From: an uncultured Gemmatimonadota bacterium | GTDB lineage: Bacteria > Gemmatimonadota > Gemmatimonadetes > Gemmatimonadales > Gemmatimonadaceae | Length of the DNA stretch: 64,000 nucleotides | Reading direction: 5' to 3' | Assembly: GCA_903882745.1 (NCBI GenBank) | Contig: CAIRYG010000011.1 | Coordinates: 1 to 64,000, forward strand | In this document: positions 17,491 to 34,436 of the stretch, one piece after another | How positions within the stretch are numbered: position 1 is the stretch's first letter | Layout: the number at the start of each line of letters is the position of its first letter | The notes under the pieces: generated by a model | Seen by the model: the letters and a program-made list of their open reading frames with translations, nothing else | Databases searched by the model: none | What the model was told of the DNA's origin: nothing | Made by a program: the position numbers and the translations under genes

Positions 17491-17578
17491 TTGCGACTCA
17501 TACGCCTCCTCCATCTTAGCATGCCAGGATAGCGCGAGTCACGATGATTGCACGCCGATCGAGGCTGTTGTGGTGCTG

Positions 17579-19678
17579 CTAGTACATCACCAACGCCGCA
17601 GCCCGCTTCGCCCGCGTCAGCGCCACATACAGCAGCTTGCGCTCATTGACGGTCTTCTCTGGGGCTTCGAGAAACCCGACCGGCGCCAGCACCAGCACCA
17701 GCACCTGATCGAACTCGAGGCCTTTTGCGCGGTGCATGGTCGAGAAGCGCACCGCCGCCGAATCCGAGCTATCACGTTTGTTCGCCTCAACGACATGCGT
17801 ACTGATGCCGGCCTCGCTGAATATCTTCGCAGCGCTATCACGCACCGCTCGGCTGTGAGCTATGACACAGGTCGTTATCGGCGGAGAGCCGGCGGGGGAC
17901 GCCCACGCCGTGACAATCTCCCGAGCACGCATCAATGCGGTGTCCAAGTTCGATTCAGTCACTACCACCGGCACTCCGCCGTGTGACAGCGACTTATACC
18001 GGCGTGTCTCATCGTGACCATCATCAAGGTCATCGACCTCACATCCCTCCAGTAGCGCAACCGCCTGACGGCGGATTTCCTCCGTCGTGCGGTAGTTCAG
18101 GTACAGCTTTCTTGACCGCCCACGTATCTCAATGCCGCAGCGGCTCATCGCGGCCCGATTGCGACTGTAGATCCGCTGGTGCCCGTCGCCGACAAAGAAG
18201 AGGTCGTTACTCGCTGCAGGTACAATGGCTCGCAGAAGTCGTAGCGCCTGCGGCCCGAAGTCCTGCGTCTCGTCGACGACGACTGCGCTGTATGCCCCCT
18301 CCACGCCAGCGCGGTTCTGCGAAAGCAACGCCGCCGCATCCCGGTAGGCGTCATCCACTTCCTTGAGTTTGCGGCTCGCGAGTTGCGCGCGATACTCCTC
18401 AAACACGGGCCACACCGCATCGCGCTTGCTGCGCGTCAGCTGGACGCCCCGCCCTGCGCGCCGCGCTGCCCTGTACTCGTCTCTGGACGTCACGCCCTGA
18501 GCCAGGATGATGGACTCAAGCTCCTGCTCGTAGAACTCGTCTGGCAGATCCAACGCCGCGTCCTTCACCGCAAGAGCATGCTGCCAGGCGTCCTGTGCCT
18601 CCTTCCGGCGGTCATAGACAATCGTGTGCTCGTACCGCTGGGACCGGAGGTAGCCGTGCACCCAGGCGTCGAGGTTGCGCACCTCGATCTTCTTCATCGT
18701 CGCCGACGAACAGAACGAGCTGAGGTTGTCCTCGATATCGAACGCGAGATTCCGCGTGAATGTCGTGAAGAGGACCTTCTGCCCCTCAGGCGTCCGATTC
18801 TCGGCCAGCCACTTGGCGCGATGCATGGCCAGCACAGTCTTGCCGGTACCGGCACCGCCCAGCACCCGCACGGGGCCGTTGCGGTCGCCAGCGGCAAGCT
18901 GCCGCTGGCTGGGGTGCAAGAACACGCGCCACTGCGCCAACGGCGCATTCATGATCGCGGTCAACTCTTCGTCCCCGTCCACAACCACAAACCGCGCCTG
19001 CGATTCGGGGGTCTCCAGTGAGCCCGAGAAGTCCGTCACATCCACCACGCGGTCCGTGGGCGTCTCCCGGGCTTTCAGGACTTGCTCTACCGAGTCGCCG
19101 GCTGCCACGAGGAAGAGTCCTTCAAACGCCTCAACCGGCAGGGATGATTCAAGGCGATCGAGGTCTTCTTCGGACCTGACGGTCCTGATGCGCTCGACCA
19201 GTTCTTCTGGCGCCCCGAGACTCATGAGTTCGTGGTCGCTCAACGCTCCGAATAGCGGAGGCGTTGGCGGCGGTGCCTTGGACGCGTTCCTGGGAGCAGC
19301 CTGGACGGCGTCTTCCACCACCTCCTGCAGCACCACCACCTGCATCGCACCTGTCACCGGGTTGATCGCGAGCTTCCGGTTTTCCGCCCACCGGTAGGCG
19401 TCCTGGTGGTTCGCTACGTACAGCAACACGTACACGTCGCCCTTGCTGGGCTTGAATACGACACCGCGCCAATCCTGATCGATGCGCACCGACCTGAGAT
19501 TCGGGTCGCGCGCTGCCTTGATCTTCTCGTAGTTGATGGCTGATGACGAGGGGTCACTTTGGAACCGGATCGCCCATTTCAGCACCTTGCTGTGAATGGC
19601 CGATGGCAACTGCGCCAACGTCAGCAGGAAGTCCTGCGACAATGCCACTTTCGGCTTCAAGCCTACTGCCTCGCTCAT
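17579..19678 (-). CDS. UvrD/Rep-type helicase with N-terminal RelE/ParE-like domain
   Basis: The 699-residue protein is last in the defence operon. Residues about 10-115 have the RelE/HigB pattern: FLLTLAQLPSAIHSKVLKWA, then LRSVRIDQDWRGVVF, YVLLYVANHQDAYRWAENRK (Arg-Ser-Val-Arg and His-x-x-Ala-Tyr-x-Trp-Ala are typical of that fold). After a linker the superfamily-1 helicase begins, with Walker A GGAGTGKT at 274-281, VVDETQDFGPQALRLLRA in the middle, GDGHQRIYSRN, LNYRTTEEIR, and STMHRAKGLEFDQVLVL followed by YVALTRAKRA. Its ATG overlaps the stop of the upstream helicase-nuclease gene (ATGA). A role in processing or sensing foreign DNA is inferred; whether the RelE-like part is an active RNase is unknown, as no antitoxin gene is nearby. 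Confidence 0.85.
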   Translation of the reverse strand: MSEAVGLKPKVALSQDFLLTLAQLPSAIHSKVLKWAIRFQSDPSSSAINYEKIKAARDPNLRSVRIDQDWRGVVFKPSKGDVYVLLYVANHQDAYRWAENRKLAINPVTGAMQVVVLQEVVEDAVQAAPRNASKAPPPTPPLFGALSDHELMSLGAPEELVERIRTVRSEEDLDRLESSLPVEAFEGLFLVAAGDSVEQVLKARETPTDRVVDVTDFSGSLETPESQARFVVVDGDEELTAIMNAPLAQWRVFLHPSQRQLAAGDRNGPVRVLGGAGTGKTVLAMHRAKWLAENRTPEGQKVLFTTFTRNLAFDIEDNLSSFCSSATMKKIEVRNLDAWVHGYLRSQRYEHTIVYDRRKEAQDAWQHALAVKDAALDLPDEFYEQELESIILAQGVTSRDEYRAARRAGRGVQLTRSKRDAVWPVFEEYRAQLASRKLKEVDDAYRDAAALLSQNRAGVEGAYSAVVVDETQDFGPQALRLLRAIVPAASNDLFFVGDGHQRIYSRNRAAMSRCGIEIRGRSRKLYLNYRTTEEIRRQAVALLEGCEVDDLDDGHDETRRYKSLSHGGVPVVVTESNLDTALMRAREIVTAWASPAGSPPITTCVIAHSRAVRDSAAKIFSEAGISTHVVEANKRDSSDSAAVRFSTMHRAKGLEFDQVLVLVLAPVGFLEAPEKTVNERKLLYVALTRAKRAAALVMY

Positions 19679-22600
19679 GACGATGCTCCCTTCTCAAGGT
19701 CAAGCTGGGCGCGCACTGAATCGGCCCAACCCTCTGACGCTTCAATCGCCTTCCATCCGGCCGCCACCCACACGGGCTCGTACTCCGACTGTGACTCGAG
19801 AAGGACAGCCACCTTTGCTGCGGGCCAGGCCAGCTCCGCTTCCGCAACCACTTGATGTCGCCCGTCCGCATGCTCGTAGCCCACCACCGGGGGCTCCGCC
19901 CCAGCTGCTTCCAGCGATACCAGGCCCGCCCTCACCGAGGCCACCGCGAGCTCGAGCGCGGCCGCCCAGGCCGCCGCCTCGGCTGACCCCGTCCCAGCCG
20001 TTGCTTCAGAAGGATGCGTCGCAGGCGAGAGCAACTCGCAGTCCCCACCGTCTATCCCCTCCCGCGTGGCCAGCAGGAAACCCGGCAAGACCTGCATCGT
20101 GTTGAATAGCGCCAGCCAACGCCTCCACCGCTGATGCTGCGTCGCCTCGTCGGTCTCATTTTGGTCGTCAATCAACAGCACGCCCGGCGTCAAACTCACA
20201 TCCGGTGCCTTCACAGCGAACTGCGCCGGCCACCAGTAGGTCAACGACGGCGTCGCACCATCACGGCTAACTGCAGCCGCACTTGGCGTCGGCATGTCGT
20301 GCATCCACTCGGGCAACGCGGCCAGCAGTGTGCTCGCTTGCGTCCGTACTGCCTCGACGTCTGCCGTCCCCGGCGTGGGCACCATCAGGAACGTGGCCCA
20401 CCCGGCGTTCCGCCGCAGCTGTTCCGTTCCGGCATCACCCTGCACGCCGGGCTCCGTCGCGAGCAATCGCAGAAGCTGGGCCACCGCATTTCGGCCAAAG
20501 GCCTGCTGCTCGGCGCGTGGCATGCTCTCCGGCGCCATGGTGCCACTGTGCCTATTCATCGTGGTCAGCGGTGAGTCCAGGTCAGTCACGACGTCCCCGT
20601 CCAACGCGGCCTTGACGTCGTCGTGTGTCACCGACCATACCCAGAAGCTGCCGCTGGATACGAGCGCGCTGCGCTTTGCCGCATCGGCGCGCATGCTGTC
20701 CTTGTGATACGCCCATCCATCGCAGAATACGGCGATCGGTCGCCTGGCCGACTTGCTCTGCGCTGGCCACAAGGTGAAGTCCGGCCGGCTCGCGATCGCC
20801 ACGCCATCCGACGGCCCCAGGTCTCGCTGGGGCTCGACCCAGTACCGCTGTGACCCGACCTCAAGAAGGAACCCAGACTTTCCGTAGACTATCTCCTGCA
20901 CCAGCTTGACCGGCGGCAGGCCATCGATTCCACCGAGCCTCCGAAGGCTCTCAATGAATCGGGCCTCCAACACCGAGTCGAAGTTCGGATTGATAAAGAT
21001 GTCCGAAATCGTCGCCACCTTCTGCAGCTGGCCGAGTGCCTCGACCAGCTCGGTCAAGACCTCGCGAGCGCGGTTGCGCGACACAAGCTCCATCTTGCGC
21101 CCTAGCCGATACTGAAAGAGGCAGCGATAGCAGCCGTCTTTCTCGGGATCCGCATTGCATCGGCAGCCGTTGATCGCCGTCAGCGCCATACGCAGCACGT
21201 CGGCCAGCGTTCCGGCATCCTGCGTCAGCAGCTGGTGCAGGTACCCCGTGCCACCGGGCACGGAGTCGTAGAGCATCACGAACTGGCGCCGCGGTCCTTC
21301 GTCGTGCCCAGGTTCATCCTGCAGCACCATGCGCAAATGGTCAACTCGGCCCCCAAAACGGATCTTCAGTCCCAATTGCAGCGCTGCCATGAACGACTGG
21401 ATGACTTCCGCGTCCATTCCCGAGCGCGTGTAGGGCACGAGTATGCGGAGTGCCTCGGAGCTGAACTCGCGGTACAGGTAGAGGCAGTCGACGAGATCGG
21501 CCGGATCTTCCGACTTGCGCTTCGCGCACTCGAAGGAATGCTGTTGAACCGGTCCCTTGTCCTGATGGCGCGGCGGCGTCTGCACCTTGCCGCAATGCCG
21601 GCACAACTTGAAACCCGGCCGGGCCGTCTCCTGATCGGCAACCTTGAACGTATCGCCAGGCTTGCTGAGTTCCCCGAAGTTCACGTCACGAAACGTCACA
21701 TGTGAGATGAACTCGAAGCCAAATGGGAGCTCCGCCGTGTCCAGCCGCCACGCCTCCTTGATATCCGTAGCGGTAAAGTCGGCCAACAACTGCCTAACGT
21801 AGAACTTCGGTTCACGATCATCGGCGCTATCATCGATGCGCACCTTGGTATCGTCGCTGTTGGCAATCGCCTGCTTGAATCGCAATAACTGTCGACGTTG
21901 CGCCTGATCCGACCACATGGCGTCTCCGCAGCGAGGGCAGGCGCCCAGCGCATCCGCGTGCACCTCCAGGTTCTGCATGTGGTGGCACGATGGACAGAGG
22001 CGCCACGACTCCAACTTGGCGAGCCCCATGTTGATTTGGTCGATTTCGACACGGCGCTGGTTGGCGTAGAACCTGTTCTCCGGCGCAAACTCCGACAACG
22101 CAGAATTCGCCGGTCGTTCGTACTTGATCGCCGGCAAGGCGACATAGGCGCCGTCCCCATGATCATCGGTTCCTTTCCGGCGCCACAACACCGACTTGAG
22201 TTCGATGCCCGCCTCTGGGAATGCGTAGTTAGGAATCAGTCCCGCGTCGGTCAGCGTGTTGAGCAGTTCGCGCTGATTGATTTCCTTGACCAGTACGAGA
22301 GCCTTATCGCGCTCGCACTTGAGCTGGTCGGACTCGTTCTTTGTGGCCTCGTCCTGTGGACCCTTATTTACAGTCGCGATCTGCGCCTTGACTTGCTCTG
22401 CGCGTTTCTTGTGCAGCTTGCGCTCTTCCACCAAGCCTTCAAGCGCCTTCATCAGTCGCACGCGCAGACCATCATCATCTCCGGTTCCGCGCATGAACTG
22501 CGTTAGCCGCTCTGTGACCCGCGCGTCAATGTCCTCACCCAGCAGCTCCACGAATGCCTGCAAGAGGCGGGGTTCGTGCTTCAGCACGTGCTCGGTAAAG

Positions 22601-25600
22601 ATGTATGGAAAACGGCTAACGTCCGCTCGTTCCACCGCGTCGAGAGCCACCGACGTCTTGTCGGGCAGAGCTGTCGCGCTCGTGATGCTTCCAACCCAGT
22701 CGTCTAGACAGAACGCGAACAGCTGGCGACGCAGAACTTCCGCAGCCTTCAGGAAGATCCCTGGAGGGGTAACCTCGCCAGCCAGCATCTCGTGTACTTC
22801 TTCGAAGAAGTACAGGTCATGAGGGCTGCCGCCGTCAGCCAACGTGACGGTTATGGCATTTCCATCACGCCGGCCGGCCCGACCAATGCGCTGGAGGTAA
22901 CTCGCCTGCGTAGGAGGTACCGAACAGAGCAGGACGGAGGAGAGGTCGCCGATGTCTACGCCGAGCTCTAGCGTCGGTGTTGCGGACAGTAGGTTTTCGA
23001 ACCAAGGCTTCGGGTCCTTGCTCTTGAATCGCGTCTCCAGCGCCTCCCGCTCAGGGCGCTCGAGCAGGCCGGTGTGCTCTGACGCAATCACTCGGCGCAG
23101 ATCGCCTTTCGAGAAGCGCTCGATGAACCAACTATCCGGGACCCGGATCTTGTCGTCGTAGACCTCGGCAGTGGCATCTAAACAGGGCATCCCGCTTAGA
23201 GCATCCGCAGCGTCCGCTGGCACGGTCAACTTCCGCTTACCTTGCCCCGAACTCAGCTGTACCACTTCTGTCTGCAGCAGCAGACAGTCGGCGGAGAGCG
23301 CCAACGTGTCCCCTAGATCGCTCGGAGTGCGCACAAAGACACCGCGCGCCTCGAGGTCACTTATGGCCGCTACATAGAGCGACTCAGCCACGTCTTCGCC
23401 GAGCAGCGCCTTACGGCCAAGTGTGGCCGCCGCCCAGTGATCGAACCATGTGAACTGCCTAGGAGACGAGAGCTTGTCGAACTCGGGATGTTTCCCAAGG
23501 CTCAGCAGAACCGGCCTCGGTCCGCGATCGCCCATCGCGGGCATCCACTCGCTGCGACCGGAGAGCCTAGCCAATTCCCAGACTTTCCCGTTCGTTGCGT
23601 ACGTTGCCAACTCCGGATGCCAGACGGCGCCTCGCCGGCGCAGATGCGCAAGAAAGCCCCACACCCACTGAGCCACGTCTCCTTCGCTGAGACCAACCAC
23701 ACCGTACTGCTCACGCAGCACAGGGGCCAGGGACTTTGCCGCTTGGAGAATCAGTTCGATCGGCACGGCCAGCGTGGCCTTGCCGATACGATCGAGGTTT
23801 CGACCGCGATGGCTGAGGTAGGTGAACTCCGACACAGCCTGCCATGCGAGTCGTTTGCGGACGCGGTCTGGAAGGCGACTTTCCTTAGGAAGCGCTCCCT
23901 TGCCCAAGAGCTCATCCACCCAGTCATGCTGCCAAGTCATGTTCGGTCCAATGAACTCGGCAACCAACCGTTCAGCGGTCATCTCCAGGGGCGAGCCGAC
24001 GTCAGTGGTGATCTTCTCGAGGCCGTCAAGGAATCCTGCCCAGGAGATAGTCGGCCTTGCCAGATGATCGATGGCCTTCGCCAGCGCGGTTCGGACCGTG
24101 TTGCCGTACGTCCGGGCGCCAAAGAAGCCCGCACGGTGAGCCGCGTCCTGCACGGAGTCGGAGAAGGCGATCAATTTCTTGTCGTCATTGAACGGACTCG
24201 CCCAGCTGTGTTCGACCACCTGGGCGCCCAGCGTCGCGTTGCGAGCACCGAGCAGGAGCAACCGGTCGCGACCACCGCACGCAGGGCAGGTGGCATCGTG
24301 CCAGGTCATCGCCATCGTTCCATTGGTGCTGCTCTTGGTCCCGGTGGTTTGGAACACGGGTACGAGCGTATTGTCACCACATGCCTGGCACTGCTCGTCG
24401 GCACCTTGCAAGCTGCCACACGACGCGCACAGATGGCGGTCCACGCCATCGACATGAGGCCGCGGGACTCCGTGCCCCGGGTATAGCCGCACCGCCTCAG
24501 GTCGACGGGCAAACCACGTGTTGTAGATCTCCTCGAGCTTATCGGATGCCTTGTTGCTCGCCGGGGCAATGCGCGACAGCCATCCCGTGGTATGGCACTC
24601 ACTGCATTGAACGAGCGGAAGGTACAAAGCCCCCAGTGAGGCGCTCAGGTCCGCAGCCGACCGCAAATCAGCAGACGGCCCATCGGACGTGACTTTGGCC
24701 ACCATGCGGCGCAACTCACGCATCCAGACCTGCACGCGCAATGTCACGAGCGGACGCCCGGCGCCATCCGCTGCTCGCGCCCACGCAGCCAGCACCAGTA
24801 CGGCATCGAGGACTTCACGGATATGAGGCCTGGCCTCCGCGGGCAACGGTCCTTGCATGGACTGCTGAAGTTCTGCGAAGTCGACCACCCCGCCTTTCAT
24901 GAGCTTGAGGAGGTTCACAAACAGCAGATGGCGCTTCAGCCGCTCTCCCAGCTCAACACGCCACGCAGGGTCGCGTACGTCTGGTGGAGCGGGCTGGTCC
25001 GGAAAGAAGACCGCAAACCATGCAGCTACTGCCTCTTCGGGACGCGCATACCGCGTCGCATCGAGCACCTGCGGCAGATCCGTGCGCGGCTGCAACACGT
25101 GCTCGATGGTCGCTTCGCCAATGAACTCAGCCACAGAGAGCCGGTTCTCCGTGACTACGGAGGACGCAGGAAACGGTGAGGCAAACAACTGCCGCGCGTA
25201 CTCGCGCAGCGGCGCGGCGTCCGACGTGCCGCCCAGAGTCGCCGACGTCCCCACACAGACTACGTGGTCCTTCGGCACCTCCAGGCGAGCGCGCAACCGT
25301 CGCAATAGGAGAGCGAGATCGGTGCCCTGCGCACCGTCGAATGTGTGCAACTCATCGACCACCACGTACCGCAGCGTCGTGGGCGTATTGCGGGCCCATA
25401 GCTTCCGGTCCTTCGGCCGCAGGAGCAGGTAGTCCAGCATCTTGTAGTTGGTCAGCAACACATCGGGCGGGTTCTTGCGCAGCGTATCGCGATCTGTGAT
25501 GCACCCGTTCGACGACATCACCATGCCAGAACCCGGCTGCCCGACGTTGCCACCTACAAACAAGCCGACTCGTAGCCCCGCGAAGGCCGGCGTGCCCGCG

Positions 25601-26049
25601 ATGACCTCTGCAAAGCGACGCGCTTGGTCGGTGGCCAGCGCATTCATCGGGTAGATCACCAACGCCTTGATGCCGGGCGCCCCACCGGCCACCCCTCGCG
25701 CGCAATGGTCGAGCACTGGGTACAAGAAGCACTCTGTCTTGCCGCTGCCCGTGCCGGTGGCCACGAGCGTATTCGCCACGTCGCCACGGCTATCGAGTCG
25801 CTGCCAGGCAGCTTCCTGATGCGTGTAGCTCGGGTTCTGCGTTTCGAACCCGTCGAAGAAGCGAGTGCCCGCTGCCCCGCCCCGAAACGGCAGACCCACC
25901 TGCAGGAAGGGCCCCTTCATCCAGGCCGATTCTTTCTCAACGAACCGGCGCATCAGGCCATGGAAGAAGTCGTCTGATGGTTCAAAGCCCGTGATCAGGA
26001 ACTGCTTCAGGCCCTCTTGGATATCGCGCGCGAGCAAGGATGGGAGCAT
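19675..26049 (-). CDS. Fused DrmA-DrmB-like helicase/DUF1998 protein with Vsr/PD-(D/E)XK-like domain
   Basis: One uninterrupted frame encodes 2124 residues. A DEAD/DEAH helicase comes first: ATGTGSGKTE at about 97-106, VDELHTFDGAQGTD near 231, TSATLG near 268, and motif VI YLQRIGRAGRR near 1060. Several Cys pairs look like zinc sites (CASCG, CQACG, CPACGG; later CPSCH, CPRCG, CRHCG). The DUF1998 part is near 1590-1650, with YDSVPGGTGYLHQLL and CRCNADPEKDGCYRC. Residues about 1725-1815 (SRPDFTLWP, PIAVFCDGWAYH, WVWSVTHDDV) resemble Vsr/PD-(D/E)XK nucleases. In DISARM, DrmA (helicase) and DrmB (DUF1998) are normally two interacting proteins; here they are one chain. Phage DNA sensing and restriction is inferred. 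Starts at ATG 26049, 69 bases after the methylase stop. Confidence 0.85.
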   Translation of the reverse strand: MLPSLLARDIQEGLKQFLITGFEPSDDFFHGLMRRFVEKESAWMKGPFLQVGLPFRGGAAGTRFFDGFETQNPSYTHQEAAWQRLDSRGDVANTLVATGTGSGKTECFLYPVLDHCARGVAGGAPGIKALVIYPMNALATDQARRFAEVIAGTPAFAGLRVGLFVGGNVGQPGSGMVMSSNGCITDRDTLRKNPPDVLLTNYKMLDYLLLRPKDRKLWARNTPTTLRYVVVDELHTFDGAQGTDLALLLRRLRARLEVPKDHVVCVGTSATLGGTSDAAPLREYARQLFASPFPASSVVTENRLSVAEFIGEATIEHVLQPRTDLPQVLDATRYARPEEAVAAWFAVFFPDQPAPPDVRDPAWRVELGERLKRHLLFVNLLKLMKGGVVDFAELQQSMQGPLPAEARPHIREVLDAVLVLAAWARAADGAGRPLVTLRVQVWMRELRRMVAKVTSDGPSADLRSAADLSASLGALYLPLVQCSECHTTGWLSRIAPASNKASDKLEEIYNTWFARRPEAVRLYPGHGVPRPHVDGVDRHLCASCGSLQGADEQCQACGDNTLVPVFQTTGTKSSTNGTMAMTWHDATCPACGGRDRLLLLGARNATLGAQVVEHSWASPFNDDKKLIAFSDSVQDAAHRAGFFGARTYGNTVRTALAKAIDHLARPTISWAGFLDGLEKITTDVGSPLEMTAERLVAEFIGPNMTWQHDWVDELLGKGALPKESRLPDRVRKRLAWQAVSEFTYLSHRGRNLDRIGKATLAVPIELILQAAKSLAPVLREQYGVVGLSEGDVAQWVWGFLAHLRRRGAVWHPELATYATNGKVWELARLSGRSEWMPAMGDRGPRPVLLSLGKHPEFDKLSSPRQFTWFDHWAAATLGRKALLGEDVAESLYVAAISDLEARGVFVRTPSDLGDTLALSADCLLLQTEVVQLSSGQGKRKLTVPADAADALSGMPCLDATAEVYDDKIRVPDSWFIERFSKGDLRRVIASEHTGLLERPEREALETRFKSKDPKPWFENLLSATPTLELGVDIGDLSSVLLCSVPPTQASYLQRIGRAGRRDGNAITVTLADGGSPHDLYFFEEVHEMLAGEVTPPGIFLKAAEVLRRQLFAFCLDDWVGSITSATALPDKTSVALDAVERADVSRFPYIFTEHVLKHEPRLLQAFVELLGEDIDARVTERLTQFMRGTGDDDGLRVRLMKALEGLVEERKLHKKRAEQVKAQIATVNKGPQDEATKNESDQLKCERDKALVLVKEINQRELLNTLTDAGLIPNYAFPEAGIELKSVLWRRKGTDDHGDGAYVALPAIKYERPANSALSEFAPENRFYANQRRVEIDQINMGLAKLESWRLCPSCHHMQNLEVHADALGACPRCGDAMWSDQAQRRQLLRFKQAIANSDDTKVRIDDSADDREPKFYVRQLLADFTATDIKEAWRLDTAELPFGFEFISHVTFRDVNFGELSKPGDTFKVADQETARPGFKLCRHCGKVQTPPRHQDKGPVQQHSFECAKRKSEDPADLVDCLYLYREFSSEALRILVPYTRSGMDAEVIQSFMAALQLGLKIRFGGRVDHLRMVLQDEPGHDEGPRRQFVMLYDSVPGGTGYLHQLLTQDAGTLADVLRMALTAINGCRCNADPEKDGCYRCLFQYRLGRKMELVSRNRAREVLTELVEALGQLQKVATISDIFINPNFDSVLEARFIESLRRLGGIDGLPPVKLVQEIVYGKSGFLLEVGSQRYWVEPQRDLGPSDGVAIASRPDFTLWPAQSKSARRPIAVFCDGWAYHKDSMRADAAKRSALVSSGSFWVWSVTHDDVKAALDGDVVTDLDSPLTTMNRHSGTMAPESMPRAEQQAFGRNAVAQLLRLLATEPGVQGDAGTEQLRRNAGWATFLMVPTPGTADVEAVRTQASTLLAALPEWMHDMPTPSAAAVSRDGATPSLTYWWPAQFAVKAPDVSLTPGVLLIDDQNETDEATQHQRWRRWLALFNTMQVLPGFLLATREGIDGGDCELLSPATHPSEATAGTGSAEAAAWAAALELAVASVRAGLVSLEAAGAEPPVVGYEHADGRHQVVAEAELAWPAAKVAVLLESQSEYEPVWVAAGWKAIEASEGWADSVRAQLDLEKGASS

Positions 26050-26118
26050 GAACTACTCAACCTCTTGGTGAATCGTCAGTCAGAGTCGCGCACTCGCCAC
26101 CGCGCCGCTGCACGCCAC

Positions 26119-29100
26119 TCACTTACGTTCCTCGAAAACCTTCCATGCAGTTCGATAGTCGTTTTCGCGGCTCGCACGGGTGAAAGGCGCGATCCAGTAT
26201 TGAGTCCTCCTTGTTGGGCCGCTCGGCAGCGTGTCGTCCATAACTTCCCGCTCGATTCGACTTCCAGCGGCGAACGCCCCTGACGACACCATTGAACAGA
26301 TATCATCCCAACCCCACGCGCCGGCGCGACGCTTACCGTCCACTGTAATGATCACGACCTGCTCTGCCGCCTTCCCCTTGCGGGGCAGACCAACACCCAC
26401 GAGGCCCTTGCTATTCGTGAAGATGATTCGGCCTCCTGCGTCATACCACGTATCTCGCTCGTAACCTTGCATTACGGGGAACTGTACGCGATAGACGAGC
26501 AACAGCTCCTCAAGGCTCAAGCCGATCGCTTGTGCCATCAGCACATCAAGTTCCACGAGCGCCATGCGCCGTGCGTAGTCCGTTCGTAGTGCGCACTCAC
26601 GCGTCCACTCGCCTGGGAGATCCGCGAAGAACTCTTGCGGTAGGATCGGATTCTCTATCTGGCTCCACGTCTGTTCCGTGAACGCCGGATCAAACACCTC
26701 GCGCCACAGCGCCGCGTAATGCGTCGTAAGACAGTTTAGGGCAAGGAGCCGCACTACGGCCGCGGGGGGCGGTTCGATCCATGGCAGCTGCAGCCAGGTA
26801 CTGTGGAGATTACCACGTCCGAGAGACTTGATATACCAGTCACTCACGAGCGCCGATACAACGCAGCCCGCAGCAAGTAGTCTGGCGGACGTGGCAAACG
26901 CACTCGTCTGTACGCCGTTGATATGAGCCACTTCAGGCGGCACTACCGCAGCAGTAAGAGTGCGTTCGTTCGCGCCAGAAATCATTGCGCGCAGCGCCAG
27001 GCGGAAGTATGCCGTGACAGGTTTCGGCCCTGCCTCACCCGCTTCCACCCAGCTCACCCGAGGAACGCGCAGAGCATACTCGCTTCGGTTGGCCGTCGGA
27101 TGGTAGTTCGTTCGCGGTAGATAATCATCCGGCAAAACTTCGAGATCGATGGCGTCGTAGTGGCCGTTGGCCGTGCAGACGCGCCGCGGGGTCTTGTTGA
27201 ACGGATTCGCCAGGTAAAAGTGCGGACCCGACAACACCAGCTCGCTCGGGTGGGCGGCAAAGCCATTGTCGCTGTTCGCGCGCCGGCTGAGCAAGCCGGT
27301 ACGTTGCGAGTTCGTTTCGTCGAACATTTCCGTCTTTACAAAGTCATCACCAATAGCGGCCAGTCGTCGCGGACATGCGGCCAGTCTTCGCAGTACATCG
27401 GTCAATGCGCCAGCATGCAGCGCCGGCATGCGCGCGCGCCGTGCCGAAGTACCCGGCTCTTCGTATAGTTCTGCGAAAACCGCTAGCGCATCATCGTCCA
27501 CGCACACGATGCGATCGCGATGACCCGCGATATTCCAGCGACCATCTGCATCCTTGATTCCTCCTACTGGCTCATCTCCTGTGTGCGCGTAACACGCTTC
27601 GACAGATGATGGCGCGAAGAGATTTGCGATGCTATCAAACGCAACGACCGATCTACGCGCGGCGTAGATATGCAACCCGAACCGCATGCGCCCGTGGTCG
27701 TTTGTGCCCGTGAACAGTTGAAACTCGTTTTGAAACTGAAAATGTGCCCTTAGCCGCAGGTACACCTCCTCTCGCAAGGCGCCTCCCTTCGGATCATCGT
27801 ATGGACCTTCAGGGTGCACGAATGCTGTTACGCCATTGTTGCCCGCAAGGCGCCAGCCGACTGGCAAGAAGCATTTATAGAGATTCGACTGCGAGCCTCT
27901 GAGCAGCGGATAGTTTTGCGCTGCGTTGACATAGTTCTGCGTACCCTCCGATTCCTCTAGCTCACCCGTCCAAAGACCTTGTAGATCCGCAAAGCGCTCA
28001 AACGCCTCCGCACGAAGATGGGTCAAGTCCGAGGCGCCAATCTTGCGTATGGCGAATAACGGATTCCTTTCACCCAGGATGCCCGCCTCGTTCCACGTGA
28101 CCTTCAGCCACGGTGGATTACCGAGCACGAGGTCAAAACCGCCACTCCGAGCAAACACATCAGCGAAGAACAGCTCCCAGTGCATGAACCGCCGCTTGGC
28201 GGCAGTCGCCTCCACCTCGCCGATTCTTGGGAATTGTTGACGCAGCTTGCTTACGCGCAATTGACCGAACCTATCGTGGAGTTTGGGTGCACTTGCATCG
28301 TCTGCCAGAGAAAGCTGTGCCTCGAAGCCAGCAAACACTGGCGAAGCGTCAAGAACCAGCTGTTTCGACGCCGCCTTCGCTACGAAGTCCAAGTGAGTCT
28401 GCGATTCGAGGTCAACGATGTTGCCTTCCAGTACCGCTCCCACTTCCATCCACCATTGTTCGCGACTTGGTAGATTCGCGCTGCTCTGAATCGGCCAGAA
28501 CCACAGCGCACACCAGTAGTCCATTACGAGCTTGAGGCGACGGAACGGCGTAGCAAGCTCGGCGTCTTGATTGAAGAGACCTTGAGCACGAATGGTTTCC
28601 TTCACCTCGCGCGGGATGTTCGGCGCATCACTTTCGGCGGAAGGCCAGACCGTCAGAGCATCCTCGGTCCGCGCGCGATCACGTGACAGCCATTGCTCAT
28701 GCTCAGCCCACAGTTCGTCAATGCGCGCGCTTAATTGTTGCAGTCGTGCAAGTTCGTGACGCTCAAGCGGGCGGCAGAAGTCCTTCCGCCACACCTTGAG
28801 TCGTTGGAAGTCGCCTGCGTAGAGAGCCTTCGCAACTTTGTCGGTATACTGCGCCATCCCAGGATCGGGTAGCAGAAAGTGATAGATCTCATCGGCGGCG
28901 CGATCGGGCTGCTTCGCATTCAGACGCCTAGGTTCTTCCTCGTGCCACGCGGGGTTTGCGCCTTTTAGCAGTGCACTGGCACGGAACACCTCGCGTCTTC
29001 CTCCGATGAGGCTATTTCCGGCAAACAGCTGGTAACCGAACCATGGCACACGCGCGGGTCGAGGGGCGATCGGAGTCCCGTCAGCAGCTATCACTGCCTG

Positions 29101-31134
29101 GCCATAGATCGCATTGAGCCAGAGCGACACCTCCGCCAGCTCAACTGCAACAGGATTCAAGTCCACTCCGAATACGTTCTTGTCGGCCAGCACCAGACGG
29201 ACACGCTGAAGCTCCCGGGGGTACTCGTCGTGGGGAATGCGGATTCTGAGTTCCAACTGCTTGCGTTCTAGGTAGGCTTCCGCAAGCTGATTGACCGCCT
29301 CGTTCAAGAACGCGGCGCTGCCCATCGCAGGCTCGCAGACGGTGAGGTCCAGTATCTCGTCGGCGGTCTTGTCCTTTAGCAGCTCGCGCAGGGCGTACTT
29401 GACTAGACAACGCGTGAGCACCTGAGGAGTGTAGTAGCTGGCGCTCCTCTCCCTGTCGCGACCGGCGAGACGGTAAATGAAGGTGCCCTTGGCGTACTGG
29501 CGCAGCTTGCGGTGACCGGATTCGTCAACGTCCCAGACACGTTCACTTGGTTTGAATTCCTCTATTCGACTGGCGGGGACGAACCAGGCATTGTCAAGCA
29601 TGTCGGTACCTGACGAACCTGCAGCGGCTTCATCCTCGTTGTCCGCAAACTCCCCGTCATCGTCGCCGGAGGCGGCTGATTTCTTCGGTTCCGGCACTAC
29701 CTCGTACAGATCCTCTGAGGCGAAGAAGCCGCGATACGACAGGAGTGCCTCATATACCGCACCCAACTGGTTGATGGACAGCAGTTGGTAGCTGACACGC
29801 CCCTTTCGCTTGCCCTTCGCGCCCGACAGCGACATTGAACGAATGACGCGCTGCCACACTTCATTTGGGAACCGCACGCGGTTCAAGAGCGGTGTGGCCG
29901 CCGGATCAAACAAACGGCTATCGAGCGGAGCAAGAACAAACACGTCTTTGCCTACCGCGAGCGGCAACTGACTGCCGAACCCGCATCCTTCGGCGACCAG
30001 GCTAAATAGCCGACGCATAGTCTCGTCGAAATACAGCCCGTCGCGGGCGTGGGGCGTCGTGAGCGGTACCAGCTCCAGGTCTCGCAACGACTCGAGGCTG
30101 TAACCCTTCAGGTAGACGTCGCTCTTTTGAATGGGCACATAGCCGAGCTCCGGACGAGCCTCGATGTAAAACATGAACAACAGCCTGTAAACAAGCCGAA
30201 GGCATTCGAGGCTCAGGTCAGCCTCGTTGATTTCATATTCGCCGGAAAAGACGCTCTTCTTCATGTCCGTGGCCTGCTGTCGCAACTGACGCACGGCCTC
30301 GTTTCCCAGCGCCTCAATCGCCTCACGGATGGCGTATTTCAGTTCCTCGCTGACTCCGAACGCGTGCTTGTGAGCGTTCTCGTCTAGCGCATCCAACAGG
30401 CTCGCGCCGCTGCCTGGCGCCAAGCTGTCTTTATGCAGCAAGACGGCAGCGGCCTGCAGAGTGGCAGCGGCCTTCCGATCGAGAATCTCATCCCAGTCGA
30501 AGCGCAGGACGCGGTTATTCGGCCACCTGTAGCGATCGAGCAACAACCATTCGTGAAGTCCCACAAGGATCACGTAGCGGGGCGGGGCCTCTGCTCCGAA
30601 GATTGCGTCAGAGACTACACTGGCCCACGTCTCCGCGTGCAGGTCAAAAGGCACCGGGAGACCACCGTAATGAACAGTCGCAAGTTGCTGGTCGAGAACA
30701 TCTTCGCCCTCCTGCCCCGGATTGTAGGCAGGAACTACAACCAGCTGTGGCGCCTTGTGCGGTTCACCCAGCACTTCCCATACGGGCAGCGGCAACCCGG
30801 GCACAAAGGACTGGCGCCCTGTCGCCGTTGACAGATCGACGCTATGGCCGAGCGCCTTCAGCAGGCCGAGCTGCAGTTCGCCAAAGAGCGCGAGCTTGAC
30901 TTGCACGTCCCGCTCTCGGCCCAAGTCATTGCGCAGGGCAAACCAGCGCGCCGACAGGCTCGCCAGTTGTTTGAATGGCGCTCGGTTCGTCGGGTCCAAC
31001 TCCTCAGCCTGCACCCACGAGTCCAGTCGGGCCTTGATATCGCCCTTGAAGACTTCAGCCAGGTAATGGTGGCTGTAGAACTCGTTCTCGTTGGAAATGC
31101 CGGCGAAGGTCTGTACTGCGTCGATAACAGGCAT
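26119..31134 (-). CDS. drmMI: Eco57I-class N6-adenine DNA methyltransferase, DrmMI-like
   Basis: A 1671-residue methylase. Motif I is TVCEPAMGSAAFLNEAVNQ near 600, followed by FGVDLNPVAVELAEVSLWLN near 665, and the catalytic motif IV is FDLVLGNPPWLKV near 1003 (NPPW, the N6-adenine type). An acidic low-complexity linker (GDDDGEFADNEDEA) lies near 495-515. The N-terminal 480 residues resemble the head of large type IIG-like enzymes, and the C-terminal 450 probably hold target recognition. In class 1 DISARM such an enzyme marks host DNA as self. It lies 21 bases after the SNF2 gene. Base composition is AT-richer than neighbouring housekeeping genes, suggesting transfer. The exact recognition site cannot be read from sequence. 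Confidence 0.87.
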   Translation of the reverse strand: MPVIDAVQTFAGISNENEFYSHHYLAEVFKGDIKARLDSWVQAEELDPTNRAPFKQLASLSARWFALRNDLGRERDVQVKLALFGELQLGLLKALGHSVDLSTATGRQSFVPGLPLPVWEVLGEPHKAPQLVVVPAYNPGQEGEDVLDQQLATVHYGGLPVPFDLHAETWASVVSDAIFGAEAPPRYVILVGLHEWLLLDRYRWPNNRVLRFDWDEILDRKAAATLQAAAVLLHKDSLAPGSGASLLDALDENAHKHAFGVSEELKYAIREAIEALGNEAVRQLRQQATDMKKSVFSGEYEINEADLSLECLRLVYRLLFMFYIEARPELGYVPIQKSDVYLKGYSLESLRDLELVPLTTPHARDGLYFDETMRRLFSLVAEGCGFGSQLPLAVGKDVFVLAPLDSRLFDPAATPLLNRVRFPNEVWQRVIRSMSLSGAKGKRKGRVSYQLLSINQLGAVYEALLSYRGFFASEDLYEVVPEPKKSAASGDDDGEFADNEDEAAAGSSGTDMLDNAWFVPASRIEEFKPSERVWDVDESGHRKLRQYAKGTFIYRLAGRDRERSASYYTPQVLTRCLVKYALRELLKDKTADEILDLTVCEPAMGSAAFLNEAVNQLAEAYLERKQLELRIRIPHDEYPRELQRVRLVLADKNVFGVDLNPVAVELAEVSLWLNAIYGQAVIAADGTPIAPRPARVPWFGYQLFAGNSLIGGRREVFRASALLKGANPAWHEEEPRRLNAKQPDRAADEIYHFLLPDPGMAQYTDKVAKALYAGDFQRLKVWRKDFCRPLERHELARLQQLSARIDELWAEHEQWLSRDRARTEDALTVWPSAESDAPNIPREVKETIRAQGLFNQDAELATPFRRLKLVMDYWCALWFWPIQSSANLPSREQWWMEVGAVLEGNIVDLESQTHLDFVAKAASKQLVLDASPVFAGFEAQLSLADDASAPKLHDRFGQLRVSKLRQQFPRIGEVEATAAKRRFMHWELFFADVFARSGGFDLVLGNPPWLKVTWNEAGILGERNPLFAIRKIGASDLTHLRAEAFERFADLQGLWTGELEESEGTQNYVNAAQNYPLLRGSQSNLYKCFLPVGWRLAGNNGVTAFVHPEGPYDDPKGGALREEVYLRLRAHFQFQNEFQLFTGTNDHGRMRFGLHIYAARRSVVAFDSIANLFAPSSVEACYAHTGDEPVGGIKDADGRWNIAGHRDRIVCVDDDALAVFAELYEEPGTSARRARMPALHAGALTDVLRRLAACPRRLAAIGDDFVKTEMFDETNSQRTGLLSRRANSDNGFAAHPSELVLSGPHFYLANPFNKTPRRVCTANGHYDAIDLEVLPDDYLPRTNYHPTANRSEYALRVPRVSWVEAGEAGPKPVTAYFRLALRAMISGANERTLTAAVVPPEVAHINGVQTSAFATSARLLAAGCVVSALVSDWYIKSLGRGNLHSTWLQLPWIEPPPAAVVRLLALNCLTTHYAALWREVFDPAFTEQTWSQIENPILPQEFFADLPGEWTRECALRTDYARRMALVELDVLMAQAIGLSLEELLLVYRVQFPVMQGYERDTWYDAGGRIIFTNSKGLVGVGLPRKGKAAEQVVIITVDGKRRAGAWGWDDICSMVSSGAFAAGSRIEREVMDDTLPSGPTRRTQYWIAPFTRASRENDYRTAWKVFEERK

Positions 31135-31155
31135 GGAGATATCTCGTTGGCCCGC

Positions 31156-34059
31156 TCAGCCGCAGACGGCCGCAAGCACCTGAATGTAGGGCTGCGGCTC
31201 TGTGGTGAGGGTTTCTTCAACCCACTTTCGGTAGTCGTCGAACACGTGGTGGATTTGCCTGCTCCGTCGTTCGAAACGTGAGCGCTTGACTCCCTCAAGC
31301 ACTCCCTCCAACTGCAGTGTCAGCTGCTCCAGCTGCCTGGCCTGCAGTCGTTCGAGGTCCGCTAGGGTGCCCACAAGACGAGTGTGCATTCCGGCAGCGA
31401 AAGCGGCCTGTCGCGCTACCATGTGTGCATGCATCGCAGCCACCGCAATTGGCAGCGCAGCCTGCAGGTCGTTGAACGGGAGCTTACGTCCGCTATTCGG
31501 CAGGGCGCCCGCCTTGAGGCCTGCGCGGTCGATGAAGGTGTCGAACGGTTCCAGGGCGAAGGCTGCCGCATCGCCGGTTCGACTCGCGACCTGCCACTCC
31601 ACCAGCAGAGGTTGGCCCCTTCTGTTCGGCACCACACTCATGAGGACAAACGCTTGCTCGTCGGTCGCGAGGCCCGGGATCTGCAGCACCGGTGCCTTGT
31701 GCCGGCCGAAGCCTGTGAGCACGCGGTCACCGAGCCACTCCACGATGGGGTGTTGCGGCCAGAGGTAATGCAGCTGAGGCCACGTTGCCTCTTCTGCGCG
31801 CGCTTGGCGAGCCTCCTCAATGGCCTTTGCCATGCGCACGCTATCGGCGCAGAGTTCGTAGCGATCATCCTGCGCCTGCACCTCACGCGGGAGCTGCCGC
31901 AGCCGTTCTTGCAGGTCGCGCGGAGCGGTGATGGCAATCGTTTGCCCTGCATCGTCCGAAGTCCACTGCGCAATGGGGTCCGGCTGAGAGAGCTGGGTCA
32001 GGGCTGTCTTGGCGAACTGGTACTCGCTGGCGAATAGAGATCTCGGAGCATCGATGCGCTCGAGACTTGAAGGTCGCGATGGCGCGGCATCGGCACGGTC
32101 GCCGGCCGGGCTTTCGCCTCCGAAGAGCTTGAGCAGCCAGTCGCCTTCGTTCGGCTCCTCTGTTCGCACCCCTGCGTCGAGGCGAGCCTCCACCTGTTCC
32201 TGGCTCAAGCCATCAGCCATGAACGCCGATACCTTCTCGGCTTCCCGTTCGGTGTCATACACATTGAGGAAGGAGGCCGGGTCGCCGAGGTTGCGGTTGG
32301 CCTGCTCGTCCTTCTGCTGGAGGATTTCGAGAATCCGCAGGTCGCCACGGATCTTCTCGACGTCGGTCTCCGTGAACAGATAGATCGTCTGCGGTTGGTG
32401 CTTCTGCCCATAGCGATCGACCCGTCCGTTGCGCTGCTGGAACACCATCAGCGACCACGGTAGGTCAAAGTGCACCAGGCGATGGCAGAAGAAGTGGAGG
32501 TTCAGGCCTTCGGAGGCAACGTCAGAACAGAGCAACACGCGCAGCGGGTCATCCTGACGGCCGAACCGATCCACAAGCTCTTGCTGCTCGGTGTCATTCA
32601 TCTGGCCGTGCAACGTGGCCATCTGATTGGGCTTCAGGCCAAGGTCAGCCGTGAGTTGCTCCGACAGCCAGCGCAGCGTCTCGATGCGTTCAGAGAAGAT
32701 CACCAACCGGTCGGCCGTGTTGCTGGTGGTCCAGCCAAATTCGGCGTCTTTCAACTGTTTCAACAGGCGCTGATACTTGCTGAAGACGGGCGTGCCGATA
32801 GCACGCAGGGTCTCGGCAAAGGCGTCCAGACCGCGGACCTCGCTGGCTTCGTCGGCGGTCGCCTCAGACTTGCCATCCAGCAGCGCGATGCGCTTGAGCG
32901 TCGATTCGAGTGCGGCGGCCGGGCTGGAGAACAGCGCCTTCTGCATGCCGACTCGCTGCAGTTCTTGTTGTTTGCCTGCGTGGTGCTGACCGTTCTGGGT
33001 GAAGGGAATGTCCAGCAGCGCCCGGTACGCAGCCTCCTCCTCTGCGCTGGCGTGCTGGCGCAGGCAGGTGGTGATGCGCTCCTGAAAGTCATTCGCGACC
33101 TGGTCGCGAATGTCCTTCTTGAAACGACGGATGACGAGACCCTTGTCCCGAAAGTCCTCGGGCGTGTAGTCGTCAGGATCGCTGATCGCCGTGGGGTCGA
33201 GCAGGCTCATTAGCGACGCGAAGCTGCGAGCAGAGCCGTCGTGAGGCGTCGCGGACAGAAGCATCAACGTGTCCGATCGCGTGGCGAGCATTCGTGCAAG
33301 CCGAGCACGACGCGAGAGACCTTCCTCCCCCGCTCGCGCGGCGACGTTCTGGCACTCGTCAATGACGATGATATCCCACCACGCATTCTCGAGGTAGTTC
33401 CGGTACTCGAGATTACTCTTTAGCGTATCAATTGAGATGATGCTGCGGTCGAAGTGGTTGAATGGGTTGTGGTTCGCCGGGATCCGGCTACGCACGCGTG
33501 CCAAGCCCACTGAATCGAGTCGCACAAGTGGAATGGAAAAGCGCGACCACCACTCCTTCTGGAACTGGGTAAGCATGCTTTTCAGCGCGACCACCAGAAT
33601 CCGCTTTCCACGCCCGCGCTGGATGAGCTCGGTGGCGAGAATGCCCGCTTCGAGCGTCTTGCCAAGGCCCGTCGAGTCAGCGATCAGGATGCGGGCACGT
33701 GGCTGGCGAAGTGCCTGGAGCGCCGGGTCGAGCTGGTAGGGCACCAGGTTCATCACCCCGCGATGGCCAAGATGGATCGCGTCATCGTTCGGGGTCGTAC
33801 GTCGTCGCTGGCTTTCGAGGTAGAGCAACGCGGCGTTGTACGTGCGGCTTGTGTCGGCCACCAGTTCCGTACTCGCTGGATCCAGAACCTCGATGTTGCC
33901 TTCGAGGTGGGTCAGGAACAGCGCCGACTTGCCGCGCACGAGATCTGAAACGCCGTCGCATGCGAGAAGATGCCCCCCATCGCTGGACGGATCGACGCGG
34001 AGAATGAGCCATTCTTCGTCGCGTATGACAACGCGACATCCTGGGGCGAGCACTGCCAT
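31156..34059 (-). CDS. drmD: SNF2-family helicase, DrmD-like
   Basis: First gene of the defence operon. From ATG 34059 it has 967 residues and begins with the PGCRVVIRDEEWLILRVDPS domain seen at the head of DISARM DrmD proteins. Helicase motifs are DSTGLGKTLEAGI near 130, VIDECQNVA near 230, SATPHDGSARSF, and the C-terminal lobe with SDVASEGLNL and QQRNGRVDRYGQ near 540, characteristic of SNF2 ATPases with an Asp-Glu-Cys-Gln box. The last 350 residues are helical and Arg/Gln-rich. The frame is open up to 34233, but that extension reads like untranslated DNA and coincides with the promoter, so I place the start at 34059. Probably translocates on or remodels incoming DNA. Confidence 0.83.
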   Translation of the reverse strand: MAVLAPGCRVVIRDEEWLILRVDPSSDGGHLLACDGVSDLVRGKSALFLTHLEGNIEVLDPASTELVADTSRTYNAALLYLESQRRRTTPNDDAIHLGHRGVMNLVPYQLDPALQALRQPRARILIADSTGLGKTLEAGILATELIQRGRGKRILVVALKSMLTQFQKEWWSRFSIPLVRLDSVGLARVRSRIPANHNPFNHFDRSIISIDTLKSNLEYRNYLENAWWDIIVIDECQNVAARAGEEGLSRRARLARMLATRSDTLMLLSATPHDGSARSFASLMSLLDPTAISDPDDYTPEDFRDKGLVIRRFKKDIRDQVANDFQERITTCLRQHASAEEEAAYRALLDIPFTQNGQHHAGKQQELQRVGMQKALFSSPAAALESTLKRIALLDGKSEATADEASEVRGLDAFAETLRAIGTPVFSKYQRLLKQLKDAEFGWTTSNTADRLVIFSERIETLRWLSEQLTADLGLKPNQMATLHGQMNDTEQQELVDRFGRQDDPLRVLLCSDVASEGLNLHFFCHRLVHFDLPWSLMVFQQRNGRVDRYGQKHQPQTIYLFTETDVEKIRGDLRILEILQQKDEQANRNLGDPASFLNVYDTEREAEKVSAFMADGLSQEQVEARLDAGVRTEEPNEGDWLLKLFGGESPAGDRADAAPSRPSSLERIDAPRSLFASEYQFAKTALTQLSQPDPIAQWTSDDAGQTIAITAPRDLQERLRQLPREVQAQDDRYELCADSVRMAKAIEEARQARAEEATWPQLHYLWPQHPIVEWLGDRVLTGFGRHKAPVLQIPGLATDEQAFVLMSVVPNRRGQPLLVEWQVASRTGDAAAFALEPFDTFIDRAGLKAGALPNSGRKLPFNDLQAALPIAVAAMHAHMVARQAAFAAGMHTRLVGTLADLERLQARQLEQLTLQLEGVLEGVKRSRFERRSRQIHHVFDDYRKWVEETLTTEPQPYIQVLAAVCG

Positions 34060-34204
34060 TGCGTTGGTGCTGGATTTCAGGTGAAATGCATCGGCCCAAT
34101 CGTACCGCTCGGCACTGACAATAGGAAGACCGACTCGAGCACCGCTACACGGGGGAATATCCGAGACGGGGCAATCTCGCTGCCGCCGGTTCGCCTTCGT
34201 GAAC

Positions 34205-34233
34205 ATAATAGTTGGCTTCGCCTCAGGCTTCAA
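34205..34233 (-). promoter_or_regulatory. Promoter of the four-gene defence operon
   Basis: TTGAAG (34233-34228), a 17-base spacer and TATTAT (34210-34205) predict a start near 34198, about 140 bases before the drmD start at 34059. It is the best promoter in the interval between selC and drmD; the rest of 34060-34339 contains no other feature that I see. Confidence 0.55.
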
Positions 34234-34339
34234 ACCGAGCAGATCCAGCGCGGCGATACCCCTTCTGTGCGCGCCAGCAAGTTGTGCAAAGCTGAAGCAC
34301 TCTTATCGCCTTGTCCTGAATGGACTTGCGATTCTTCCG

Positions 34340-34436
34340 TGGCGGAAGCGTATGGGAATCGAACCCACCCAAGCCGACATCGTCAGCTCGCACCGGTTTT
34401 GAAGACCGGACCCGGCACCAGCCAGGACACGCTTCC
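34340..34436 (-). tRNA. selC: tRNA-Sec (TCA), selC
   Basis: 97 bases including an encoded CCA. The 8-bp acceptor stem GGAAGCGT/ACGCTTCC, the long variable arm and anticodon loop CTTCAAA (anticodon TCA) identify selenocysteine tRNA. G1 is the base immediately following the selD stop codon, so the two are co-transcribed with zero spacing. The 3' end borders the defence island. Confidence 0.96.

Follow-up and report, generated by a model that had tools for sequence, protein, structure and literature searches.

An ARMADA type II anti-phage operon at the selC gene of an uncultured Gemmatimonadota bacterium

The first 64,000 nucleotides of contig CAIRYG010000011.1 (GenBank assembly GCA_903882745.1), from an uncultured member of the Gemmatimonadaceae and referred to here in their entirety as the window, contain an operon of four co-oriented genes on the minus strand (34059-17579), directly downstream of the selenocysteine tRNA gene selC. 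This operon is very probably a complete and seemingly intact copy of the phage-defence system ARMADA type II (armABCD), which reached the genome by horizontal transfer and entered it at the selC 3' end. ARMADA type II is a published relative of DISARM that was named, classified and tested in a preprint (Bell et al., 2025; PMC12458937), and its gene order is ArmA (SNF2/BrxHII-like helicase), ArmB (PglX-like methylase), ArmC (YprA/DUF1998 helicase-nuclease) and ArmD (RelE-UvrD). Since the system has already been described, the exact layout is not new, and the window copy adds another ARMADA II case. The locus is composed as follows.

34340-34436, minus strand: tRNA-Sec (selC), the insertion site, found with ARAGORN and Rfam RF01852
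34205-34233, minus strand: promoter candidate TTGAAG-17-TATTAT, sigma-70-like and weak (9/12 matches, 0.5 expected by chance)
31156-34233, minus strand: armA open reading frame (ORF) as called, 1025 aa counted from a TTG
31156-34059, minus strand: armA with the revised start, SNF2/RapA/BrxHII-like helicase, 967 aa from the ATG at 34059
26119-31134, minus strand: armB, PglX/YeeA-like adenine-specific DNA methylase, 1671 aa
26050-26118, no strand: armB-armC junction, 69 bp, without extra genes in the window
19675-26049, minus strand: armC, YprA-family (DUF1998/MZB) helicase with a putative C-terminal nuclease, 2124 aa
17579-19678, minus strand: armD, RelE-like domain fused to a UvrD/GajB-like helicase, 699 aa

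This identity is supported by a comparison with the experimentally studied system of Escherichia coli. The window proteins share 49% (ArmA), 50% (ArmB), 37% (ArmC) and 43% (ArmD) identity with those of E. coli O157:H7 Sakai, and alignment with the Sakai operon showed that all eight residues mutated in the E. coli study are kept, namely ArmA K134 (Walker A) and D234 (Walker B), ArmB G605 and N1006 (NPPW), ArmC K104 and D232, and ArmD K280 and D469. Their Sakai counterparts are ArmA K136 and D236, ArmB G605 and N971, ArmC K110 and D234, and ArmD K266 and D454, and the numbering of the Sakai proteins fits the published mutation positions exactly. As a positive control, the Sakai proteins gave the same PADLOC pattern as the window proteins. 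Two features that define ARMADA II are present in the window: the genes run in the co-directional order ArmA-ArmB-ArmC-ArmD, and the DEAD, Helicase_C and MZB domains are united in one 2124-aa protein (Pfam). The systems of E. coli NCTC 12900 and ATCC 8739 have the same four proteins, order and critical residues, and the RelE-UvrD fusion and the insertion at a tRNA 3' end are likewise as in the window, where the C-terminal nuclease of these systems has a putative counterpart (PMC12458937). The window copy differs in its host lineage, in the use of selC instead of tRNA-Phe or tRNA-Leu, in its sequence (~37-50% identity), and in having neither a Druantia III or Zorya II neighbour nor an integrase. 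In most ARMADA type I operons, unlike in the window, the YprA gene leads and a RelE-UvrD gene is absent (PMC12458937); a Deinococcus plasmid locus (L127) shows this order. A tree of ArmC, built by a quick method with few outgroups, placed the window copy within the type II group, with all 24 type II rows and a support of 100, and its neighbours were betaproteobacterial, acidobacterial and verrucomicrobial copies. Two DruE III proteins formed a separate, fully supported group, and the Deinococcus type I-like helicase also stood apart.

The ORFs and the tRNA gene agree with the original prediction of four co-oriented genes beside selC, with spacings, in operon order, of 21 bp (armA/armB), 69 bp (armB/armC) and a 4-bp overlap (armC/armD), and the predicted conservation of the gene order in other genomes was borne out across many phyla. 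The 80 related loci were gathered by scanning genome contigs with ArmC alone. Four co-oriented genes were found in 33 of them, invariably as A-B-C-D and in no other co-oriented order, while the remaining loci miss at least one gene, mostly owing to the end of a contig or flank. Among the 34 complete loci, the sole one outside this pattern is that of Lujinxingia vulgaris (L069), in which armA-armB is divergent from armC-armD. The A-B-C-D order is also carried on plasmids of Nostoc, Microvirga, Haematobacter, Pseudanabaena and Streptomyces, and a Tsukamurella plasmid has the same order with armC annotated as two pieces. In E. coli, most of the operon is present in 513 of 5426 genomes. Because order and spacing recur across many phyla, the four-gene layout is not a product of chance.

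Profile searches clarified the composition of each protein, and Pfam agreed with the SNF2, Eco57I methylase, DEAD-DUF1998 and UvrD assignments made originally. ArmA carries SNF2 and Helicase_C domains and was recognized by Pfam, PADLOC and NCBIfam as an SNF2/DrmD/BrxHII-like helicase. ArmB has Eco57I/N6_Mtase domains and is PglX-like; its top PADLOC model is REase_MTase_IIG, which would suit a stand-alone type IIG restriction-modification enzyme joining methylase and nuclease in one protein, but the same model leads for E. coli ArmB, which requires its three partners. ArmC is a DEAD helicase with an MZB (DUF1998, MrfA zinc-binding) domain whose nearest PADLOC profiles are DruE, and ArmD, beyond its N-terminal domain, matched UvrD (Pfam) and GajB models (PADLOC). 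The smaller domains are the following.

21118-21390, minus strand: MZB domain of ArmC, residues 1554-1644, Pfam PF09369, E 3.4e-12
20599-20976, minus strand: Vsr-like PD-(D/E)xK nuclease domain of ArmC, ~residues 1692-1817, assigned from conserved residues and weak structural matches
19690-19950, minus strand: second nuclease-like domain at the ArmC C-terminus, residues 2034-2120, with a weak match to PvuRts1I-type nucleases (Z ~6)
19331-19657, minus strand: RelE-like domain of ArmD, residues 8-116, AlphaFold2 predicted local distance difference test (pLDDT) 92

The RelE/UvrD fusion that had been read from the sequence held up through a RelE fold at the ArmD N-terminus, and the nuclease-like domain, which lies towards the ArmC C-terminus, is indicated by an invariant E-Q-D-D-H core (E1695, Q1741, D1757, D1777 and H1782 in 55 relatives) and weak structural matches. 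The model of the Vsr-like domain weakly resembles I-Bth0305I, a homing nuclease, and BsoBI, a restriction enzyme, as the published description suggests. The second nuclease-like domain is probably inactive; with the model of the ArmC C-terminus, Foldseek returned nothing significant, and a PDB profile search gave repeat-protein noise only. The best Foldseek matches of the ArmD N-terminus model were the toxins RelE, YoeB and YafQ, and a PDB profile search with this domain placed RelE and YoeB at E ~0.1, ranked below unrelated chains. Pfam gave no significant match for the isolated RelE-like and Vsr-like domains.

The start of armA was revised from the TTG at 34233 to the ATG at 34059, which is probably the true start, because the -35 element of the promoter candidate overlaps the TTG, because homology begins at residue ~59-63 and because in 30 of 34 relatives the frame leaves room for an extension of less than 25 aa beyond the equivalent position. 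Transcription of the operon from one promoter had been proposed, and a single sigma-70-like site was indeed located (34233-34205); with 9 of 12 matches and 0.5 expected by chance, it remains a weak candidate.

The kinship with DISARM that was first proposed for this operon stays true, and several of the observations behind it were upheld: the drmA-like and drmB-like parts are fused, and drmC is missing, as none of the four proteins has a phospholipase D domain and the insert holds no other gene. A new DISARM class 1 subtype in which drmA and drmB have merged, drmC has a substitute and methylation marks self is nevertheless very unlikely. The best profiles of ArmA are DrmD (327.6 bits in PADLOC and 342.5 bits in NCBIfam) and DrmMI scores 149 bits on ArmB, which speak for such a subtype; however, the 342.5 bits fall far below the curated equivalog cut-off of 610, ArmB scores 824 bits on type IIG models, ArmC scores 336 bits on DruE compared with a weak 52.6 on DrmA, the listed matches include neither a DrmB nor a DrmC model, and the validated E. 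coli ARMADA shows the same profile pattern. With the DrmD cut-off missed and both drmB and drmC absent, membership of DISARM was rejected. DISARM class 1 (Ofir et al., 2018) has a related SNF2 helicase (DrmD), a methylase (DrmMI) and a YprA-type helicase split into DrmA and DrmB, whereas the window has helicase and DUF1998 in one protein, no DrmC phospholipase D and an additional RelE-UvrD protein. A Druantia-type system, which the top PADLOC profiles of ArmC (DruE1, 336 bits; DruE3, 321 bits) would indicate, is extremely unlikely. The matches listed for the four proteins include no DruH or DruABCD partner, a methylase is present, and the tree sets the two DruE III proteins apart; moreover, no ARMADA model of PADLOC 2.0.0 is among the matches listed, hence DruE is merely the nearest model, and the validated E. 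coli ArmC likewise scores as DruE. In Druantia III (PMC13192584), DruE resembles ArmC in joining a helicase to a C-terminal nuclease, but the system has DruH as a partner, a phospholipase-D-type nuclease and no methylase. Similarly, PglX and BrxHII of BREX are relatives of ArmB and ArmA, and the methylase-dependent defence logic is likely similar, although no BrxA, BrxB, BrxC, BrxL or PglZ genes are among the four.

Several points weigh against an intact ARMADA II system with the proposed mode of action. Motif II of ArmA (residues 234-237) reads DECQ, where all six relatives compared have DEAH, and the ArmD C-terminus is ~20 residues shorter than in relatives. The Vsr assignment of the ArmC nuclease, built on conserved residues and weak structural matches, is itself weak, and the steps of the mechanism set out below are borrowed from homologues. 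The two protein anomalies, together with the lack of an integrase in the insert and of a direct selC repeat of at least 12 bases, would fit a decayed or non-functional ARMADA II island that was retained by chance after insertion. Such decay seems very improbable, however, as the four long frames are open, the eight critical residues and the tight spacings are retained, and E. coli ARMADA islands are frequently immobilized too.

The physiological role of an intact ARMADA II operon can be approached from its studied relatives. In E. coli, ARMADA II gives non-abortive protection from a broad set of phages and requires all four genes; the ATPase motifs in both ArmA and ArmC, the Walker A motif of ArmD and the NPPW motif of ArmB are required, while the Walker B motif of ArmD and the S-adenosylmethionine motif of ArmB are only partly required (PMC12458937). 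By analogy, the function of the window operon is most likely non-abortive, DNA-targeting phage defence. ArmB would recognize or modify specific DNA sites in the manner of PglX of BREX, and ArmA may act as an accessory motor for DNA remodelling or translocation. ArmC is the putative DNA-cutting effector, which would load on infection-associated, partly single-stranded DNA and cut it via the Vsr-like nuclease. DruE, its nearest studied relative, is loaded onto DNA bearing 3' single strands, where it assembles and cleaves (PMC13192584), and the cutting by ArmC would thus parallel that of DruE, which uses a phospholipase-D-type nuclease. ArmD would be a further accessory motor that unwinds or processes nucleic acid, and it may cut RNA via its RelE-like domain. 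Self-marking through methylation by ArmB does not appear to be the most economical model, because E. coli is no longer protected once ArmB is lost (PMC12458937); the need for both the methylase motif and the whole of armB is BREX-like behaviour rather than that of a merely protective methylase.

The comparison of ARMADA II loci also revealed a strong asymmetry among the junctions of the operon. A gap of more than 600 bp occurs between armB and armC in 31 of 52 relatives, compared with 0 of 37 between armA and armB and 1 of 69 between armC and armD. The additional genes found between armB and armC often belong to known defence systems. The ORFs in this slot, called mechanically and two of them from plasmid loci, read in the operon direction in 76 of 84 cases. 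Complete Zorya II systems occupy the slot in two cases, the Amphritea and Luteimonas loci, and a complete MkoA-MkoB pair occupies it in Simplicispira; other slot genes include LeoA, TmtA, PsyrT, AbiEii, AbiLi-like, SIR2/ThsA-like and YhcG-like genes. In our locus numbering, the complete Zorya II slots are L037 and L076 and the MkoA-MkoB (Mokosh) slot is L012, and the slot is filled in L010, L012, L017, L020, L021, L024, L025, L027, L037, L039, L042, L076, L079, L083, L085 and others. A ~240-258-aa protein without a Pfam match lies directly before armC in betaproteobacterial loci (L020:2244-3017, L024:8936-9664 and L029:7025-7744), and it may be an optional fifth component. It is about an even chance that the slot is a specific cargo site that takes up and exchanges entire, unrelated defence systems, mostly reading the same way; the operon would then be a chassis that can be loaded with layers of immunity, which possibly cooperate, and the window copy would be its empty form. 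The main text of the ARMADA paper (PMC12458937) mentions no accessory or nested genes, and no account of an armB-armC slot was found in the literature on nested defence systems; we are unsure whether the slot is novel.

The horizontal acquisition of the operon is supported by an empty site in a close relative. In a congeneric sister genome (G014, locus L107), selD, selC, a gene for an OYE-family oxidoreductase and further genes stand together without the operon, with flanks of ~96% DNA identity to those of the window, and ArmC had no match among 60 relatives, including 17 of the same genus. The inserted segment takes the place of 11 bp of the empty site, and it is delimited in the window by the following features.

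17495-34339, no strand: inserted segment, 16,845 bp with the operon, beginning immediately behind the selC CCA end; its far edge is placed to within a few bases
17497-17513, minus strand: inverted degenerate copy of the selC 3' end (14/17), at the far edge of the insert

The insert contains no integrase gene. Integrase islands would leave a direct repeat, not an inverted one. At the far edge, no direct repeat of selC of at least 12 bases was found, with two 12-base matches lying elsewhere. The inverted copy is the only non-self match in the 64 kb at up to three mismatches (0.28 expected).

The window offers a clear example of an operon gained at selC, for which a close relative still displays the unoccupied site, and it adds another lineage to a defence family that was described recently and has experimental support. 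The comparison across relatives further suggests a testable rule for the nesting of defence systems, in which inserts occur at one junction only.

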